Of a DNA stretch of 64,000 nt, positions 6,178 through 47,652 are shown one piece after another. Both the position numbers and the translations under genes were made by a program. Positions within the stretch are counted from its first letter, which is position 1. Each line of letters opens with the position of its first letter. Source of the stretch: Micromonospora zamorensis. GTDB lineage: Bacteria; Actinomycetota; Actinomycetes; Mycobacteriales; Micromonosporaceae. The notes beneath the pieces are model-generated. The model made no database searches. It was not told where the DNA came from and saw nothing but the letters and a program-made list of their open reading frames with translations. The DNA is taken from positions 2,790,001-2,854,000 of the forward strand of contig NZ_LT607755.1 in assembly GCF_900090275.1 (NCBI RefSeq), read 5' to 3'.

Positions 6178-7239
6178 GTGACGTCACCGGTGGGACTGCA
6201 CCGCGTCGTGCAACCGGCGGGGGTGCTGCCGCAGGCGGCGTGGCGCCTGGACGCGTCGGCGGCGATCGCGCCGAACGAGGTGCGGATCCGGGTGCAACGG
6301 CTGAACCTGGACGCGGCGAGCTTCCGGCAGTTGTCGGAGAAGCACGGCGGCAACGGCGACGCGGTGCGCGCCGAGGTGCTGGAGATCATCTCCACCCGGG
6401 GGAAGATGCAGAACCCGGTGACCGGTTCCGGCGGGATGTTGATCGGCACGGTCGAGGAGGCCGGTCGGCGTTCCCCGCTCGGGCTCAAGGTGGGGGAGCG
6501 GGTCGCGACCCTGGTGTCGTTGACGCTGACCCCGCTGGTGGTGACCGACGGGCTGGCGCGGTGGGACGGGCGCAGCGAGCAGGTGCCCTGTGACGGGTGG
6601 GCGATCCTGTTCGCCCGTTCCATCGCCGCGGTGCTGCCCGACGACGAGGACCCGCAGTTGTCCCTGGCGGTGCTGGACGTGTGCGGGGCGCCCGCGCTGA
6701 CCGCGCGGGTGGTGTCGCGCTACGTGGAGGACCGTCGTCGCGTCGGTGATCCGACGCCGGTGCGGGTCGCGGTGATCGGCGGGGCGGGCAAGAGCGGGTC
6801 GCTGTCCCTCGCCGCGGCGCGGCGGGCGGGCGCTGCGCGTACCGTCGGGGTGGTGCCGGTGGCGGCCGAGCGCGACGCGCTGACGGCCGCCGGCCTGGCC
6901 TCGGTGGTGGCGTTGGCCGACGCGCGGGACCCGGTGGGGTTGTCCACGGCGGTGACCACCGCCCTGGGGGCTCCGGCGGACGTCACAGTGGTGTGCGTGG
7001 ACGTGCCGGGGTGTGAGCACGGCGCGGTGCTGGCCACCGCGGACGGCGGCACGGTGATCTTCTTCTCGATGGCGACGAGTTTCTCCGCGGCGGCGTTGGG
7101 CGCGGAGGGGCTGGCGGCGGACGTGACGATGCTGGTGGGCAACGGGTACGTGCCGGGGCACGCGGAGCTGGCGTTGGGGCTGTTGCGGGCCGAGCCGGGG
7201 GTGCGTCAGCTGTTCACGGCGCGGGTCGCGGCAGACTGA
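6178..7239 (+). CDS. kdd: L-erythro-3,5-diaminohexanoate dehydrogenase
   Basis: 353 residues from GTG 6178 (GGGGAGG at 6166-6172 supports it over the upstream TTG at 6139). NAD(P)-dependent oxidative deamination of 3,5-diaminohexanoate to 5-amino-3-oxohexanoate. The Rossmann core shows VAVIGGAGKSGSLSLAAARRAG near 195-215, and conserved segments include KMQNPVTGSGGMLIG and VGNGYVPGH typical of Kdd. It is the first gene of the plus-strand operon; the amidohydrolase starts 4 bp after its stop. Recognition relies on the family pattern plus the kamA/kamDE context. Confidence 0.88.
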   Translation: MTSPVGLHRVVQPAGVLPQAAWRLDASAAIAPNEVRIRVQRLNLDAASFRQLSEKHGGNGDAVRAEVLEIISTRGKMQNPVTGSGGMLIGTVEEAGRRSPLGLKVGERVATLVSLTLTPLVVTDGLARWDGRSEQVPCDGWAILFARSIAAVLPDDEDPQLSLAVLDVCGAPALTARVVSRYVEDRRRVGDPTPVRVAVIGGAGKSGSLSLAAARRAGAARTVGVVPVAAERDALTAAGLASVVALADARDPVGLSTAVTTALGAPADVTVVCVDVPGCEHGAVLATADGGTVIFFSMATSFSAAALGAEGLAADVTMLVGNGYVPGHAELALGLLRAEPGVRQLFTARVAAD

Positions 7240-7243
7240 GGTC

Positions 7244-8809
7244 ATGACGAACCCCTCGACGTTGTACCGCGGCGGCGTGCTGCACTGCCCCGCCGACCCG
7301 AGCGCCACCGCGCTGCTGGTGTCCGGTGGGCGGATTGCCTGGTTGGGGACCGACGGTGACGCGCCGCCGGCCGACCGGGTGGTGGACCTGGATGGGGCGT
7401 TGGTGACGCCGGCGTTCGTCGACGCGCACGTGCACGCCACCGACACGGGGTTGGCGTTGTCGGGGCTGGAGTTGTCCGGGGTGCGCTCGGCGGCGCAGTT
7501 GCTCGACGCGGTGGCCGGGTTCGCGGCGGGCCTGCCGGCGGACGCGGTGCTGCTGGGCCACGGCTGGGACGAGTCGGGTTGGTCGGATGCGACGTTGCCG
7601 GACGCGGCGGCGTTGGATCGGGCGGCCGGGGGTCGGCGGGTGTACCTGTCGCAGGCGTCGATCCACTCGGCGTTGGTGTCGTCGGCGTTGCTGGCGGCGT
7701 GCCCCGAAGCGGCCGACGCGGCGGGGTACGACGCGTCGGGGTGGTTGCGGCGCGACGCGCACCACGTGGTGCGGGCGGCGGCGCAGGCGTCGGTGAGCCG
7801 GGCGCAGCGGGTCGCCGCACAACGGGCCGCCCTCGCGCACGCGGCGTCGTTGGGGATCGCGGCGGTGCACGAGTGCGGCGGTCCGGACATCTCCGACGAG
7901 GAGGACTTCACCGGGCTGCTGGGCATCTCCGGTGCGGGGTTGCCGGAGGTGTACGGGTACTGGGGTGAGCTGGGTGGCGCCGCCCGTGCCCGGGAGTTGG
8001 GTGCGGTGGGCGCCGGAGGTGACCTGTTCGCCGACGGGGCGTTGGGTTCGCGTACGGCGCACGTGTCGCAGCCGTACGGCGACGGTGACGACTGCGGGCA
8101 CGGGTACCTGACGGCCGAGCAGGTGCGTGATCACTTGCTGGACTGCGCGGCGCACGGCATGCAGGGCGGTTTCCACGCGATCGGTGACGCGGCGATCGGC
8201 ACCGTCCTGGACGGTTTCGCGGCGGCAGCGGAGTCGCTGGGTGTGGAGCGCCTGCGGGCGGCCCGGCACCGCATCGAGCACGCGGAGATCATGAACAAGC
8301 GGTTGATCGCGCGGTTCGTGGAGTACGGGGTCGTGGCGAGCATGCAGCCGGCGTTCGACCGGCTGTGGGGTGGCGCGGGCCGGATGTACGAGGCGCGGCT
8401 GGGGTTGGACCGGTCGTTGGAGTCCAACCCGATGGGTGCGATGCACTCGGTGGGTGTGGCGATGGCGTTCGGGTCGGACTCGCCGGTGACGCCGCTGGAC
8501 CCGTGGGGTTCGGTGCGGGCGGCGGTGTCACACCACAACCCGGCGCAGCGGATGAGTGTGCGGTCGGCGTTCGCCGCGCACACCCGGGGTGGGTGGCGGG
8601 CGGTGCACCTGGACGTCGAGGGGGTCCTCGCGTTGGGTGCGCCGGCGACGTTCACGGTGTGGTCGACGCCCGCGGGGGTGGAGCGGGGCCTGCCGGTGCT
8701 GCTCGCCGAGGACCCGGAGGAGCGGGGTCCGGACGACCCGACGCCGTTGCCGGTGTGCCGGCGGCTGGTGCTGCGCGGTGAGGTCATCTATGAGGAAGGG
8801 TCATCATGA
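7244..8809 (+). CDS. Amidohydrolase, YtcJ/Amidohydro_3 type, embedded in the lysine operon
   Basis: 521 residues. Metal-dependent hydrolase of the amidohydrolase superfamily: first metal motif VDAHVHATD near 60, an IEHAEIM block near 345, and the catalytic Asp in AFGSDSPVTPLDPW near 410. Relatives (YtcJ) are poorly characterised and hydrolyse exocyclic amide or carbamate bonds. It begins 4 bp after kdd and overlaps kamD by ATGA, so it is tightly co-expressed. It is not part of the textbook clostridial pathway. It may remove an acyl group from a lysine derivative or act on a lactam or cyclic side product; no substrate can be read from sequence. Confidence 0.85.
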   Translation: MTNPSTLYRGGVLHCPADPSATALLVSGGRIAWLGTDGDAPPADRVVDLDGALVTPAFVDAHVHATDTGLALSGLELSGVRSAAQLLDAVAGFAAGLPADAVLLGHGWDESGWSDATLPDAAALDRAAGGRRVYLSQASIHSALVSSALLAACPEAADAAGYDASGWLRRDAHHVVRAAAQASVSRAQRVAAQRAALAHAASLGIAAVHECGGPDISDEEDFTGLLGISGAGLPEVYGYWGELGGAARARELGAVGAGGDLFADGALGSRTAHVSQPYGDGDDCGHGYLTAEQVRDHLLDCAAHGMQGGFHAIGDAAIGTVLDGFAAAAESLGVERLRAARHRIEHAEIMNKRLIARFVEYGVVASMQPAFDRLWGGAGRMYEARLGLDRSLESNPMGAMHSVGVAMAFGSDSPVTPLDPWGSVRAAVSHHNPAQRMSVRSAFAAHTRGGWRAVHLDVEGVLALGAPATFTVWSTPAGVERGLPVLLAEDPEERGPDDPTPLPVCRRLVLRGEVIYEEGSS

Positions 8810-42271: not shown

Positions 42272-42699
42272 GCTTCAACCAACCTGGCGCCCGTAAGCGG
42301 CCCGGGCTGCGGCAACCTCTGCGGCCTGGCGCACCCGCCACCTTCTCTGGGCCTCGCTGTTGCACGCGCGACACACCGTGCGGTTCCGGCCACTCGTGGG
42401 ATCGATCTCTCGCTCGTGCCCGTTGCGACAGCGCGGTTGCTGGGTGCGGCTGCGGCAGTTCTCGGCGCGGGCCACCTGCTGTAGGTGAGTGGGTTCGATG
42501 CAGTCACGCACTCCACAGAGGTGTGCACGTCCAACCCGGGGTCGTAACCGCCGACGAAGACAACGTAGGCCGTGATGTGCGCCCAGGCCCGCCCAGCGGC
42601 CTTCTGGTACACGCCCCGCTGGCTGCCGTAACCGCGCACGATCAGGCAGCCGTCGTCTCGACGGACCGAACGACCGATGAGGTATGCGCGCAGGGCTAG
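42272..42699 (-). pseudogene. Decayed copy of the HNH protein gene
   Basis: Translates in two frames to the same protein as the intact gene at 43471-43938. The upstream part reads GCLIVRGYGSQRGVYQK...YDPGLDV and the downstream part CIEPTHLQQVARAENCR...RQVG. The frame changes near 42511-42530, where the copy reads HTSVE instead of RHLCGAPD. The N-terminal ~15 codons are absent. It is a broken, N-truncated paralogue. Confidence 0.8.
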
Positions 42700-42872: not shown

Positions 42873-43355
42873 GTGATCACGCAACGGCTCCGGGTCGCCG
42901 CGTACGCGGTGTGTCTCCGGGATGAGGACGTGCTGCTCGCCCGTTGGGTTTCGCCCGACGGTGCTCGGCGGCACTGGACGTTGCCCGGCGGCGGGGTCGA
43001 GCACGCCGAGGATCCGTTCGACGCCGTCGTGCGGGAGGTGACTGAGGAGACGGGGTACGAGGCACAGGTCGAGCAGTTGCTCGGTGTGAACTCGCGTACG
43101 AGGAATGTGGAGCGCAACGACAGGGATGTTGTCGAGCTGCACATGCTGGCCATCTTCTACCGGGCCCGGATCGTTGCCGGTGAGCTTCGATCCGAGACGT
43201 CCGGCACGACCGACCTGGCGCAGTGGACACCCATGGCACAGGTCTCGACCCTGGAGCGCTCCGTCGTCGTCGACGTCGGGCTTGAGCTGCACCGCAGTGC
43301 GCCGCCGACCGGGCACGTGGAGACGATCCAGACGACCGGACTCCTGCGGCACTGA
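42873..43355 (+). CDS. NUDIX hydrolase
   Basis: 160 residues from GTG 42873. NUDIX box about 38-60: GGGVEHAEDPFDAVVREVTEETGY matches GX5EX7REUXEEXGU. RVAAYAVCLRDEDVLLAR precedes it. Hydrolyses nucleoside diphosphate derivatives; exact substrate unknown. It lies between two copies of the HNH gene, on the opposite strand, and may have been moved with the duplication. Confidence 0.9.
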   Translation: MITQRLRVAAYAVCLRDEDVLLARWVSPDGARRHWTLPGGGVEHAEDPFDAVVREVTEETGYEAQVEQLLGVNSRTRNVERNDRDVVELHMLAIFYRARIVAGELRSETSGTTDLAQWTPMAQVSTLERSVVVDVGLELHRSAPPTGHVETIQTTGLLRH

Positions 43356-43470: not shown

Positions 43471-43938
43471 TCAGCCCACCTGCCGGCCGTACGCGGCCCG
43501 TGCTGCGGCAACCTCTTCGGACTGCCGTACGCGCCACCTCTTCTGCGCCTCGCTGTTGCACACTCGACACACCGTGCGGTAGCGACCACTCGTTGGATCG
43601 AGCTCCCGCTCGTGCCCGTTTCGGCAACGCGGCTGCTGGGTGCGGCTGCGACAGTTCTCGGCGTGGGTCACCTGCTGGAGATGGGTGGGTTCGATGCAGT
43701 CCGGCGCGCCACACAGGTGGCGCACGTCCAACCCGGGGTCGTATCCACCGACGAAGACGACGTAGGCCGTGATGTGGGCCCAGGCCCGCCCGGCGACCTT
43801 CTGGTACACGCCCCGCTGGCTGCCGTAACCGCGCACGATCAGGCAGCCGTCGTCTCGACGGACCGAACGACCGATGAGGTACGCGCGCAGGGTCTCCTCA
43901 GTGAAATGTCGGGACAAGCCCTTCACCTGCGACAGCAT
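43471..43938 (-). CDS. HNH endonuclease-like protein with a C-terminal zinc ribbon
   Basis: 155 residues. HNH_3-like centre: AHITAYVVFVGGYDPGLDV then RHLCGAPDCIEPTHL near 75-90 with the last HNH His and metal Cys. The C-terminal CRNGHERELDP...CRVC is a zinc ribbon as seen in phage and self-mobile HNH proteins. The first HNH His appears to be in RHLCG (variant DH). Intact copy of the locus duplicated at 42.27-42.70 kb. Could be a homing-type nuclease or a defence/toxin enzyme; the SUKH-like gene next to it is divergent. Confidence 0.75.
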   Translation of the reverse strand: MLSQVKGLSRHFTEETLRAYLIGRSVRRDDGCLIVRGYGSQRGVYQKVAGRAWAHITAYVVFVGGYDPGLDVRHLCGAPDCIEPTHLQQVTHAENCRSRTQQPRCRNGHERELDPTSGRYRTVCRVCNSEAQKRWRVRQSEEVAAARAAYGRQVG

Positions 43939-44073
43939 CTCACCAGGCTAGATCAGGGGGCCGCGCGTGGGTGACGAGGACCGACCGGGTGGGACCGGCG
44001 TGAGCGAGCGACCCGCCGGTCCTGGCCGAGTTGGTCCCCGCGTTGCTGGTCGGCGCTCGATAGATTGGCGGCC

Positions 44074-44547
44074 ATGTCGTCACTGGGCAAGCTGGACGGG
44101 TGGGAGTCGCTGTCGCCGGAGTTGCGGGAGCGGATGGTCGCGGCCGACCTGCCGGAATCGTTGCGACTCGACGAGTACGACCTGTTTCTGCTCGGCCCGG
44201 ACCTGATCTTTCGGGATGGCCTGCTGCGATTCGGCTACGGCACGGACGCGTGGGGCGGCGAATTCTGCCTCGACCTGGACACCGGCGCCGTGCTGGTCGT
44301 CGATGACATTCGGACACGGACGTTCGTGAACTCGTCGCTCGACCTGTACGCCCGTTCGCTGCGCCTGGTCGCCGGTCTGGCGCCCGCAATCGTCGGCGGC
44401 GAACCGGACGGGTGGGAAGACGCCAAGAACGAGATGCAGCGGGTCATCGGGGAGTGGGACGCACCGGCGATGACCTCGGACAACTACTGGGACGGCCTCT
44501 CGTGGGACATCGCCACCGGCAACTACGCCGACCAGTCTGACCTCTGA
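44074..44547 (+). CDS. SUKH-4-like immunity protein
   Basis: 157 residues from ATG 44074. SUKH-type alpha/beta pattern: ADLPESLRLDEYDLF, LLRFGYGTDAWGGEFCLDL then TGAVLVVDD and TFVNSSLDLYARSLR, the last being the most characteristic SUKH-4 block (FVNSSL). In Iyer/Zhang-type analyses of polymorphic toxin systems, SUKH-4 proteins neutralise nucleic-acid deaminase toxins. The next gene downstream encodes a protein with a deaminase-like motif, which fits. Assignment is by pattern recognition. Confidence 0.75.
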   Translation: MSSLGKLDGWESLSPELRERMVAADLPESLRLDEYDLFLLGPDLIFRDGLLRFGYGTDAWGGEFCLDLDTGAVLVVDDIRTRTFVNSSLDLYARSLRLVAGLAPAIVGGEPDGWEDAKNEMQRVIGEWDAPAMTSDNYWDGLSWDIATGNYADQSDL

Positions 44548-44751
44548 CTCCTGCCCGAAATGTCGGCCGGGGCCATCCGCTAAAGAACGGCCATCTAACA
44601 TCCCTCAAGGCCGCGTGGCATTGACACTCGGGCATGTCATCACCCGTCTTTGACAAACGGGTTAACAAAAATGCATCCGTGCCGCCGCGCGATCTTCCAC
44701 GCGCGTTGGGGGGCCTTTGTGTCACGGGTGCGGAGGGGGACAGCGAATTTG

Positions 44752-46668
44752 ATGGGCAATGACATCAAGGAGCGTTCGAGGATCGCGGTGCTGACGCGAC
44801 TCGCCGCGGTCCTGGTCCTGATCTGGTCGGTGATCGGCATTGCGCCGGCCGCCAGCCACGCCGGGCCACGCGTCGTCGCGGACTGGCCGATCATCGATGC
44901 CCGGTGTGCTCCGATCACGCCTCAGGGACTGGTCGGTTACGGGTGCCACAAGCTGAGCACGTACCTGCAGGAGGCGCGGTTGGATCTCCGGTACAACCGG
45001 CCGCCGAAGACCACCGACAAGCTTTACACCAACGTCCGGGGCAACTACGCGATCGCCCAGCTGCAGGATGGCAAGTACATCATCGGCTACAGCGACGGTG
45101 CGAAGCACGCCGAGATCCGACTGATCGAACAGATGCAGGGCAAGGCCCCGCGCATCGAGTTCGACCCGAAGACCGGCAAGGTGTCGTACCAGCCGGCCAA
45201 GGCGTCGCCGATCAAGGAGGGATACTCCGAGATCGAGCCCTGCAAGAAGACCTGCAACCCGGCGCTGGAGAACGCGAAGGTCCGGGACAAGTTCACCTAC
45301 AGCTACCGGTGGAACGCCGCGCCGGGCGAGGACGAAAAGGTTCTGCGGGATCGGACCAACAACCGCAACACGGGTGCGAAGCAGGTCGCGGTCCAGACGC
45401 TGCTCAACGAGACGAAGGCCTCGGGTCCCATCCTTCCGAAGTCACCCGAGGAGTTGGCCAAGGGCAGCGCGGTCAGCAAGGCAGCCGGCAAGCAGATGGG
45501 GCCGATCCGGCCCGGTGGCATCGACTTCTCGTCGGTCCAGTTGCGCTATGTGACGGACGGTGGGGGATCGGGTGGCGACACGTACTCGTTCGAGACGGCG
45601 ACCACCCCGGGCCAGGAGTCCAAGGACGGCACCGACCAGATCTACGACGCCGACGAGGCACTCAACACCTGGATGGCCGTGGAGCCGTCGCGTTTCTGGG
45701 TGAACCTCAACCCGAGTCAGCCGGACAAGGTGATCGACCAGTACCTCGGCCGGACCGAGGTCGGGCGCATCCTGCTCGAAGCCGACCTGGAGTTGAAGCG
45801 GGCGTGGACGCGATTCCAGGACCCGAAGACGGCGGTCGGCCTGGAGTACTGGAACCGGATGACTGGCCTGGACGGGGCCTGCATCCGGCAGTGGATCGTG
45901 CCGAAGACGGCGACGATCCGCGAGGAGGGGAACCGCCTTTACATCCTCGACGCGCCCCTCGAGGTGAAGGCCGAGGCGTTCGACTTCACGATTCCCGGCG
46001 ACCCGGACTTCAAGTGTCCAGCCAATCCGGAGCCGTCCATGGCCGTCTACCGGGACCTGCTCCTGCCCGAATTGAACAAGGCCGTGAATGACGCGCCCGG
46101 GTTCAAGGACCTCCGCCGGGTCTACATCAGCCGGGTGGCCGCCGAGTGGTACCGCGGCCGGATGGCAGCCGACGGTCGCGCGGCCGACGCCGGCATCGAC
46201 AGCAACGACGTCAGCACCCTGGAGCGCGAGGATGACTGGAACCCGGTCGACGTCTTCAACCAGTACGTGAAGGAGATCTCCGGCACCACGTACGAACTGC
46301 CGAACGGTGTGCAGGTGACCACGGGTGGCGTCGACTTCACGCAGCCGGTCAAGACGACCAAGCTGAGTGACACCACGTTCAAGGAGCAGCACGCGGGCCT
46401 GCCGACCACCGTCGACAGGTCGCTCACCGAGGTCACGAGATCCTCGGACGAGAAGCAGGCCTACCTGGGCGGCGCCGACGAGATCCCCGGCTTCGTCGGC
46501 CTGAACAAGGCGAACCCAGCGCCGAGCGGCCCAGCAGGCGGTGGCGGCGGTGGACTGCCGATCACCGGTTCACCCATCCTCACCATCGCGACGGTCGGGG
46601 TCCTGCTGATCCTGATCGGCATGGCGGCCCTGTGGCGTACCCGCCGGCTGCGGTGGGTGGTCAAGTAG
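44752..46668 (+). CDS. LPITG-anchored secreted protein with N-terminal deaminase-like domain
   Basis: 638 residues from ATG 44752 (GGAGGGGG upstream; ATG 44671 and GTG 44719 are possible). Signal peptide about 1-37. Residues 90-170 look like a nucleotide/nucleic-acid deaminase: GNYAIAQLQDGKYIIGYSDG, HAE at 119-121 (zinc His and catalytic Glu) and SEIEPCKKTC with Cys164 and Cys168 (CxxxC, where CxxC is usual). A long unassigned middle follows, with WNPVDVFNQYVKEI near 500. The C-terminus is a sortase signal: LPITG (602-606), hydrophobic helix, RRLRWVVK. Surface toxin or effector with SUKH-4-like immunity upstream. Confidence 0.72.
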   Translation: MGNDIKERSRIAVLTRLAAVLVLIWSVIGIAPAASHAGPRVVADWPIIDARCAPITPQGLVGYGCHKLSTYLQEARLDLRYNRPPKTTDKLYTNVRGNYAIAQLQDGKYIIGYSDGAKHAEIRLIEQMQGKAPRIEFDPKTGKVSYQPAKASPIKEGYSEIEPCKKTCNPALENAKVRDKFTYSYRWNAAPGEDEKVLRDRTNNRNTGAKQVAVQTLLNETKASGPILPKSPEELAKGSAVSKAAGKQMGPIRPGGIDFSSVQLRYVTDGGGSGGDTYSFETATTPGQESKDGTDQIYDADEALNTWMAVEPSRFWVNLNPSQPDKVIDQYLGRTEVGRILLEADLELKRAWTRFQDPKTAVGLEYWNRMTGLDGACIRQWIVPKTATIREEGNRLYILDAPLEVKAEAFDFTIPGDPDFKCPANPEPSMAVYRDLLLPELNKAVNDAPGFKDLRRVYISRVAAEWYRGRMAADGRAADAGIDSNDVSTLEREDDWNPVDVFNQYVKEISGTTYELPNGVQVTTGGVDFTQPVKTTKLSDTTFKEQHAGLPTTVDRSLTEVTRSSDEKQAYLGGADEIPGFVGLNKANPAPSGPAGGGGGGLPITGSPILTIATVGVLLILIGMAALWRTRRLRWVVK

Positions 46669-46673
46669 GTCAC

Positions 46674-46712
46674 ACCGTCCCGCCGCGCCCCTGACGGGCG
46701 CGGCGGGACGGT
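46674..46712. terminator. Strong bidirectional terminator
   Basis: 17-bp perfect stem (46674-46690 with 46696-46712), CTGAC loop, between the LPITG protein gene and the convergent LysR gene. Confidence 0.9.
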
Positions 46713-46722
46713 CCGCCGCTGG

Positions 46723-47652
46723 TCATGCCCACGTTGGCAGCCAGATCTCCGCATCGACTGGGCTCGTTCGTCGCGAATCGAGATGATCGCGGAGTGTGGC
46801 GAGCGCGGGATGCGGGTTGTCGTCGCGCCAGATCAGCGACATGGGGTAGATCGGCGCCGGTCCGCGTACCGGTATGCGCCGCAGGTCGTAACTGTCCGGC
46901 CACAGGTACCGGGTGCGTTCGCCGGCGAACGTCGCCAGTTCCGCGGAGTCGGCGATCTCGGCCAACAGCGCCTCGTTGCCGAAGACCGGCCCGACCAGGT
47001 CGATGGTGAGGCCGAACGCGGCGGCGAGTTCGTCGTAGTAGTCCGCCCACTCGGTGCCGGAGGCCATGCCGGGCATCCAGATGCGGTGCGCGGCGAGCTG
47101 CGCGGGCGTGACGGTGCGGGCGTTGGCGAGGGCGTGGCGTGGCCCGACGAGGAGTTCGTGGTGTTCGTCGATCACGCGGGCGGTCCTGATCCCGTCGGGC
47201 AGGTGGCGCTCCGGGATGGGGACCGCGTGGAACGTGGCGTCGACCGCCCCTGCCTCGACGGCGGCCATCGCGGCATGGACATCGGCGTCGAGGGTGACGA
47301 CATCCAGCTCGATGCGGGGGTGCGCCCGGTGGAAGTCCTGCAATAGCACCGCCGGTGCGATGCGCCGACTGTGCACATCCACGCGCAGGGCGCGCCGACC
47401 GGGGCGTACGGAGGCGTCGGCGCGCGCCTCGACGCGCAGCAGTTCCCGGGCGTGGGGCAGGAAGGTCTGGCCGTCGATCGTGAGCTGGGCGCCGCGAGCG
47501 GTGCGGTTGAACAGTCGTACCTGGAGATCCTTTTCCAGGGCGGCGATGCGCTTGGACACGGCCTGCTGGGTGATCGACAGCGTGGTGGCGGCGTCCTGGA
47601 ACTGACCGGCGTCGGCGGCGGCGACGAACGTGCGTACGGCGTCGAGATCCAC
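46723..47652 (-). CDS. LysR family transcriptional regulator
   Basis: 309 residues. N-terminal winged HTH about 2-60 (MDLDAVRTFVAAADAGQF, then ITQQAVSKRIAALEKDLQV) and the periplasmic-binding-like effector domain. Divergent from the MFS-GNAT operon with a 128-bp gap that contains AT-rich sequence; LysR proteins usually activate the divergent transcript. Effector unknown. Confidence 0.92.
   Translation of the reverse strand: MDLDAVRTFVAAADAGQFQDAATTLSITQQAVSKRIAALEKDLQVRLFNRTARGAQLTIDGQTFLPHARELLRVEARADASVRPGRRALRVDVHSRRIAPAVLLQDFHRAHPRIELDVVTLDADVHAAMAAVEAGAVDATFHAVPIPERHLPDGIRTARVIDEHHELLVGPRHALANARTVTPAQLAAHRIWMPGMASGTEWADYYDELAAAFGLTIDLVGPVFGNEALLAEIADSAELATFAGERTRYLWPDSYDLRRIPVRGPAPIYPMSLIWRDDNPHPALATLRDHLDSRRTSPVDAEIWLPTWA

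Follow-up and report, generated by a model that had tools for sequence, protein, structure and literature searches.

A 64,000-nucleotide stretch of Micromonospora zamorensis DNA (contig NZ_LT607755.1, positions 2,790,001 to 2,854,000; hereafter the window) contains two adjacent forward-strand genes, one encoding a 157-residue SUKH-4-like protein (44074-44547) and one, starting with ATG, encoding a predicted 638-residue surface protein with an N-terminal deaminase-like domain (44752-46668). The pair is probably a cassette of mirror-image polymorphic toxins, in which a wall-anchored, outward-facing deaminase would be neutralised by the SUKH-4 protein and the toxin end is exchanged on the 5' side. 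The deaminase fold, catalytic set, anchor signal, linkage of the two genes, N-terminal exchange and class-specific neighbours all provide computed support. An earlier note on this DNA had proposed a secreted, sortase-anchored deaminase toxin of unusual architecture beside its immunity gene, and that reading is mostly supported. The parts of the pair are as follows (P, L and G numbers below are our handles for proteins, loci and genomes).

44004..46664, +: two-gene cassette (SUKH-4 gene and toxin gene, ~2.7 kb), common to genomes with differing flanks by blastn
44074..44547, +: SUKH-4 immunity-like protein, 157 residues, PF14435 over cut-off
44752..46668, +: putative toxin gene; predicted secreted and wall-anchored protein, 638 residues, with same-length homologues (for example P0003-P0012, 82-91% identity)
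44752..44865, +: signal peptide, residues 1-38, hydrophobic helix 11-29 (sequence and structure model)
44878..45399, +: N-terminal deaminase-fold domain, residues ~43-216, XOO_2897-like, putative toxin (fold match; PF14440 below threshold)
45106..45114, +: HAE motif, residues 119-121, H and E kept in 28/28 readable alignment rows
45238..45255, +: PCKKTC motif, residues 163-168, P, C and C kept in the same 28/28 rows
45508..46500, +: central domain, residues 253-583, constant part of the family (family alignment; structure model)
45514..45528, +: GGIDF motif, residues 255-259, start of the central domain; G, G and D invariant in the family alignment
46324..46338, +: GGVDF motif, residues 525-529, second copy, towards the central domain's end (motif search and alignment)
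46555..46569, +: LPITG sorting motif, residues 602-606 (sequence)
46576..46644, +: C-terminal membrane helix, residues 609-631, then an Arg-rich tail (structure model)

A predicted surface-anchored deaminase-like protein paired with SUKH-4

Structure comparison matches the N-terminal domain to the deaminase fold. The XOO_2897 deaminase profile PF14440 aligns with residues 97-186 (expectation value (E) 2.1e-4, 21.8 bits), under its cut-off of 27, and the protein database assigns PF14440 to homologues such as P0012-P0015, the first of them 82% identical to the window protein. XOO_2897-like deaminases are defined by HxE and PCxxC-type zinc motifs, whereas the spacing in the window protein is PCxxxC. 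By analogy, HAE would provide a zinc ligand and the catalytic glutamate, and the cysteines of PCKKTC further zinc ligands. The HAE and Cys164/Cys168 set that the earlier note had picked out is present at the stated positions, and its loss in homologues, which would have spoken against a deaminase, is not seen: H119, E121, P163, C164 and C168 are invariant in the 28 readable rows of 30 window-class proteins (two are gapped).

Secretion and anchoring, both proposed previously, are also borne out by prediction. The protein begins with a signal peptide, probably cleaved after SHA, and ends in LPITG, a hydrophobic helix and the Arg-rich tail, as sortase substrates do; the genome has seven places over the cut-off of the sortase family PF04203. 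A simple hydropathy rule finds a hydrophobic C-terminal stretch in 162 of the 177 proteins that carry both conserved motifs of the central domain, 62 of the 177 having LPxT[GAS] and 20 having LAxTG, and in the window's class LPxT[GAS] and the stretch occur together in 35/35. Where no sorting motif is present, the membrane helix would be the only anchor. Because the anchor is C-terminal and the toxin domain N-terminal, the toxin domain would be outermost, and this placement may explain the reversed polarity.

The 44074-44547 product, called SUKH-4-like from its letters in the earlier note, matches PF14435 above the cut-off (E 6.6e-9, 36.5 bits, cut-off 25.5). It has no signal peptide by eye and is probably cytosolic. 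Among 201 related genomes, a full-length toxin is present in five (G000, G045, G047, G102 and G108), and SUKH-4 homologues are found in six. Those of the five share 47-100% identity with the window's protein, and the sixth, in G014, is a weak match (30% over 98 residues); the five toxin-bearing genomes are thus the five with a close SUKH-4 homologue, and the pair is conserved. Four further genomes match the central domain, and 21 match only the final ~50-80 residues, the sorting region. In 7/7 window-class loci, counting the fragment L101, in which part of a toxin gene adjoins a full-length SUKH-4 gene, the SUKH-4 gene is directly upstream on the same strand, at 204-210 bases from the toxin gene in six and 383 in one. 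The pairing exceeds chance, since it recurs across genomes and the window's genome, a single 7.1-Mb contig, has just two SUKH-4 places, the window's and one other. Judged on sequence, the two genes very likely form a toxin/immunity cassette.

The pair also moves as a unit. Blastn blocks common to the window and L003, L004, L097 and L099 start at 43994-44023 and end at 46664-46709, and the more distant L100 gives two matching pieces within these limits. When the ~3-kb flanks of the six cassette loci are compared, the sole mutual match is on the left side, between L097 and L099 (E 1e-15); five genomic settings are therefore counted. The LysR neighbour with the highest similarity (94%) among 101 genomes is that of G056, where 54 bases separate the aligned left and right flanks and no cassette is present. 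Consensus scans of 43900-46800 for promoters and terminators gave no signal clearly exceeding shuffles.

N-terminal classes and their neighbour genes

A protein search, which scored only the 7992 candidates with most shared words, found 519 relatives of the window toxin, of which 120 are listed, the last 90 of these covering just 48-83% of the query. Across Actinomycetota, 186 regions preceding the first motif (from listed proteins and fetched loci) were grouped at E 1e-6, which gave the 12 clusters below.

Nuclease-like class: 62 sequences, with D...ExK in a loose form, which chance could yield, in 62/62 and in a stricter form in 27
Deaminase-like class: 44 sequences, H[ASTG]E in 39
Window's class: 37 sequences
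Second XOO_2897-like class: 24 sequences
Tox-REase-5 class: 11 sequences
Remaining clusters: one pair and six singletons, of which P0115 is HNH-like by eye

Several of the deaminase-type clusters may be distantly related to one another. Pfam matches over cut-off comprise PF14440 (cut-off 27) in P0051 (30.4) and P0063 (34.2), both in other clusters than the window's, and PF15648 in P0037; there are none in P0033 of the nuclease-like class or in P0048 of class 1. The deaminase-like N-terminal domain of P0048 shows weak, sub-threshold similarity to AID/APOBEC models (E 0.083 and 0.086), and it could represent a new toxin deaminase clade.

The clearest case of exchange involves P0111, a nuclease-like member, and P0117 of the second XOO_2897-like class. 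Their C-terminal parts, starting ~30 residues ahead of GGIDF, share 330 of 428 residues (77%), and the parts in front of these have no significant similarity. Read from the sequences, this is the classical polymorphic toxin pattern with the ends swapped. A swappable toxin domain on a constant carrier is thus found both in this pair and in the 12 clusters that precede one central domain.

For the neighbouring genes, 80 regions, none longer than 11.5 kb, were fetched, and genes were called by a script from G+C by codon position, whose gene starts may err (L134 and L147 came out short). The regions cover 38/40 match rows of one genome search (own genome excluded; the two rows of G761 are one region) and 39/59 of a second, plus G574, G030 and G011; these whole-genome searches superseded an initial contig scan that found two loci. 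The 82 loci were reduced to 79, as L106 and L123 had no called toxin gene and L004 duplicated L098.

Neighbours in the 79 loci follow the N-terminal class. The window's class has SUKH-4 upstream in 6/6 loci (L101 being the seventh), the second XOO_2897-like class has a distinct SUKH-4 family upstream in 4/4 (Pfam E 2.6e-17 to 6.9e-12), and the Tox-REase-5 class has Imm52 downstream in 2/2 (E 6.3e-10 and 1.3e-8). The nuclease-like class has an unnamed family upstream in 34/45 loci, DUF6333 upstream in 8/45 (8/8 over the Pfam cut-off) and neither in 3/45, and its neighbour families occur in both orientations. An adjacent, matched candidate immunity gene therefore accompanies these classes and not class 1. 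All 54 classed loci with a neighbour family agree by class, which 0/20000 label shuffles equalled; because the families were defined from those loci, this shows only that no family is shared between classes. In 54 of 56 placements, the candidate immunity gene is found at the end of the toxin gene that encodes the toxin domain. Seven genomes have two fetched members each. In G713, G760 and G754 the two differ in class and both adjoin the family of their own class (one in G754 being the fragment L101), in G968, G1021 and G925 a nuclease-like member has its family and the other member, of class 1 or 5, has none, and in G864 neither of two class-1 members has one.

The two excluded loci were checked separately: L106 encodes a Tox-REase-5 toxin, and the next gene downstream is Imm52-like (E 5.9e-5, 23.2 bits, cut-off 25), and L123 has a weak nuclease-class match and no recognised neighbour. 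The 34-locus family was considered as a distant SUKH-4 and rejected, since profile comparison gave a probability of 0.1%, although one member, in L122, matched the window's SUKH-4 at 6e-4 when the fetched genes were compared. Two of the pairings, SUKH with XOO2897 deaminases and Imm52 with Tox-REase-5, agree with a table published for other toxins in 2012 (PMC3482391).

Since the recognisable N-terminal domains are of deaminase or nuclease types, and surface display would expose them to incoming DNA, the protein could instead be a nucleic-acid enzyme for defence or scavenging that acts on DNA from phages, plasmids or the environment, while SUKH-4 guards the producer's cytosol against mis-sorted enzyme. 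This seems improbable: neither window protein matched any family of the PADLOC anti-phage library at E 0.1, and N-terminal polymorphism with class-specific neighbours is a hallmark of interbacterial competition rather than of a fixed defence enzyme.

Other features of these loci are as follows. A small membrane-protein family lies just downstream of the toxin gene, as gene +1, in 10 nuclease-like loci of Micromonosporaceae (L105, L107, L110, L112, L113, L115-L118 and L125), with a 4-base overlap in 8; its product is possibly a partner in anchoring or export. In L157 a SUKH-1/SUKH-6 gene (6210-6686) lies downstream of a nuclease-like toxin, in addition to the upstream candidate immunity gene. 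In L133 the central domain is broken across two frames, and a gene of the neighbour family seen in the nuclease-like class is close by.

The constant central domain

The central domain is modelled with confidence (residues 253-583, predicted local distance difference test score 88.9, predicted template modelling (TM) score 0.90). In the window protein it has no Pfam match over cut-off, and the PDB and viral structure libraries gave nothing firm: weak Foldseek rows point to helical pore-forming toxins (NheA and Mak proteins; E at least 0.7, TM about 0.1), and the top viral match, to a J-domain protein of Tupanvirus (E 0.025, TMq 0.34), is too weak to interpret. Among the genomes sampled, the central domain occurs in 50 of 246 from Streptomyces and 36 of 300 from Micromonosporaceae.

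Two GG[IVL][DN][FL] motifs, about 270-295 residues apart, flank the domain in 115 of 121 proteins, and the linker before GGIDF is variable in length and often rich in Pro, Ala and Gly by eye. Both traits would suit a diffusible toxin, for which the anchor merely parks a precursor until proteolysis somewhere between the toxin domain and the central domain, perhaps at a site close to GG[IV]DF, frees the N-terminal domain to act remotely. We regard this as rather unlikely, although it is the strongest of the rival explanations: both GG[IV]DF motifs are modelled as strands and not as exposed linker, and the only neighbour families that recur beside many loci are the immunity candidates and the membrane-protein family, the other neighbours not having been annotated for proteases. 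The carrier domain could be a new device for delivery or processing of proteins displayed with the N-terminus outward.

The range of the domain outside Actinomycetota is given by eight long proteins (P0132-P0139), two of which are labelled Candidatus Omnitrophica, a group proposed to include predators and parasites. These two, P0137 and P0139, contain a related central domain (E 1.9e-9 and 9.3e-6 over the whole database; 1.3e-41 and 2.7e-34 when 17 sequences were searched with the family profile). They are 2439 and 2634 residues long and bear the labels HPr (PF00381), or PF02518 and methyltransferase (PF08241). Unlike in the window family, the central domain lies near the N-terminus, and each has one GGIDF motif, near the C-terminus. 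P0133, P0134 and P0136-P0139, in which the central domain is near the start, likewise show a GG[IV]D[FV] motif, at a distance of some 50-120 residues from their C-termini.

Proposed action and relation to known toxins

The protein would leave the cell by general secretory export, and sortase would then fix its C-terminus to the wall with the deaminase domain facing outward. On contact with a related cell, that domain would be transferred or released, and would deaminate nucleic acid or nucleotides in the target cytosol. Kin would be spared because cytosolic SUKH-4 made from the upstream gene binds the deaminase domain. The GGIDF...GGVDF domain would be the constant carrier, with toxin domain and immunity gene swapped on the 5' side. 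Within this scheme we infer enzyme activity and substrate, toxicity, neutralisation, contact dependence, cell entry and the role of the central domain.

A constant carrier, a swappable toxin, an adjacent immunity gene and the same families are shared with contact-dependent inhibition (CDI), Rhs/WapA and LXG systems (Zhang et al. 2012, PMC3482391). Classical polymorphic toxins described there carry the toxin domain at the C-terminus, whereas the window protein has it at the N-terminus (residues ~43-216 of 638), with the anchor at the other end; the architecture is thus as unusual as the earlier note held. Neither 'sortase' nor 'LPXTG' appears as a word within the first 300,000 of the 357,715 characters of PMC3482391. 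MafB (same article), TANFOR, SitA and umbrella toxins are also surface-linked or secreted and polymorphic with lineage-specific constant parts, but the constant part of MafB and TANFOR is N-terminal and that of the window family C-terminal. The candidate immunity gene also differs in position. It is mostly upstream in the window family, whereas in classical systems it is downstream. XOO_2897-like deaminase toxins (PF14440) are similar in their deaminase fold, HAE...PCxxxC motifs and SUKH partner, and the window protein differs from them in its sub-cut-off score, N-terminal domain and sorting signal.

Three points qualify the proposed reading. First, the C-terminal toxin domain of polymorphic toxins is absent here, and toxin domains precede GGIDF in the relatives too; the cassette is therefore treated as a variant that would work like polymorphic toxins. 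Second, 15 class-1 loci (0/15) and 4 small-class loci have no recurring neighbour. Third, the central domain also occurs near the N-termini of Omnitrophica proteins of more than 2,000 residues, which would fit an ordinary surface protein that acts through this domain, its N-terminal domains and SUKH neighbour being incidental. Such a protein is very improbable, given that the catalytic residues are retained in all 28 rows, neighbours vary with N-terminal class and the two genes travel as one cassette.

A broader proposal is that the family forms a reversed-polarity class of polymorphic toxins, with an N-terminal warhead, a mostly upstream immunity gene, a C-terminal anchor and an undescribed GG[IV]DF-bounded carrier also present in Omnitrophica; here we see the chances as evenly balanced. 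Such a class, with N-terminal toxins and C-terminal anchoring, was not found described in the titles and opening parts of abstracts searched, which mostly leave subscription journals and preprints outside. If the proposal is true, soil bacteria that make antibiotics carry protein weapons with reversed architecture on their surface. Annotation overlooks these, since no Pfam model covers the constant domain and many of the listed relatives go by the name 'hypothetical protein'. The central-domain profile would then be a tool to find new toxin domains, including new deaminases of possible base-editing use, as well as new families of immunity genes (DUF6333 and one without a name), and actinobacterial surface toxins would be linked with a domain of Omnitrophica proteins.

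Several minor features lie beside these genes. An HNH endonuclease region is duplicated upstream of the cassette, at 42275-42695 and 43471-43892 (the blocks have 85% and 96% identity and are spaced by about 1196); the duplicates enclose a NUDIX-like gene by eye (42873-43355), and both align to a single stretch in G056 (L191). The copy at 43471-43938, HNH_3 by Pfam, adjoins the cassette. A tRNA gene guessed from sequence to adjoin the cassette in L097 and L099 was ruled out, as ARAGORN found 0. In L106, from a lower-G+C genome, a leucine-rich-repeat protein (7007-7873) is encoded upstream of the Tox-REase-5 toxin.
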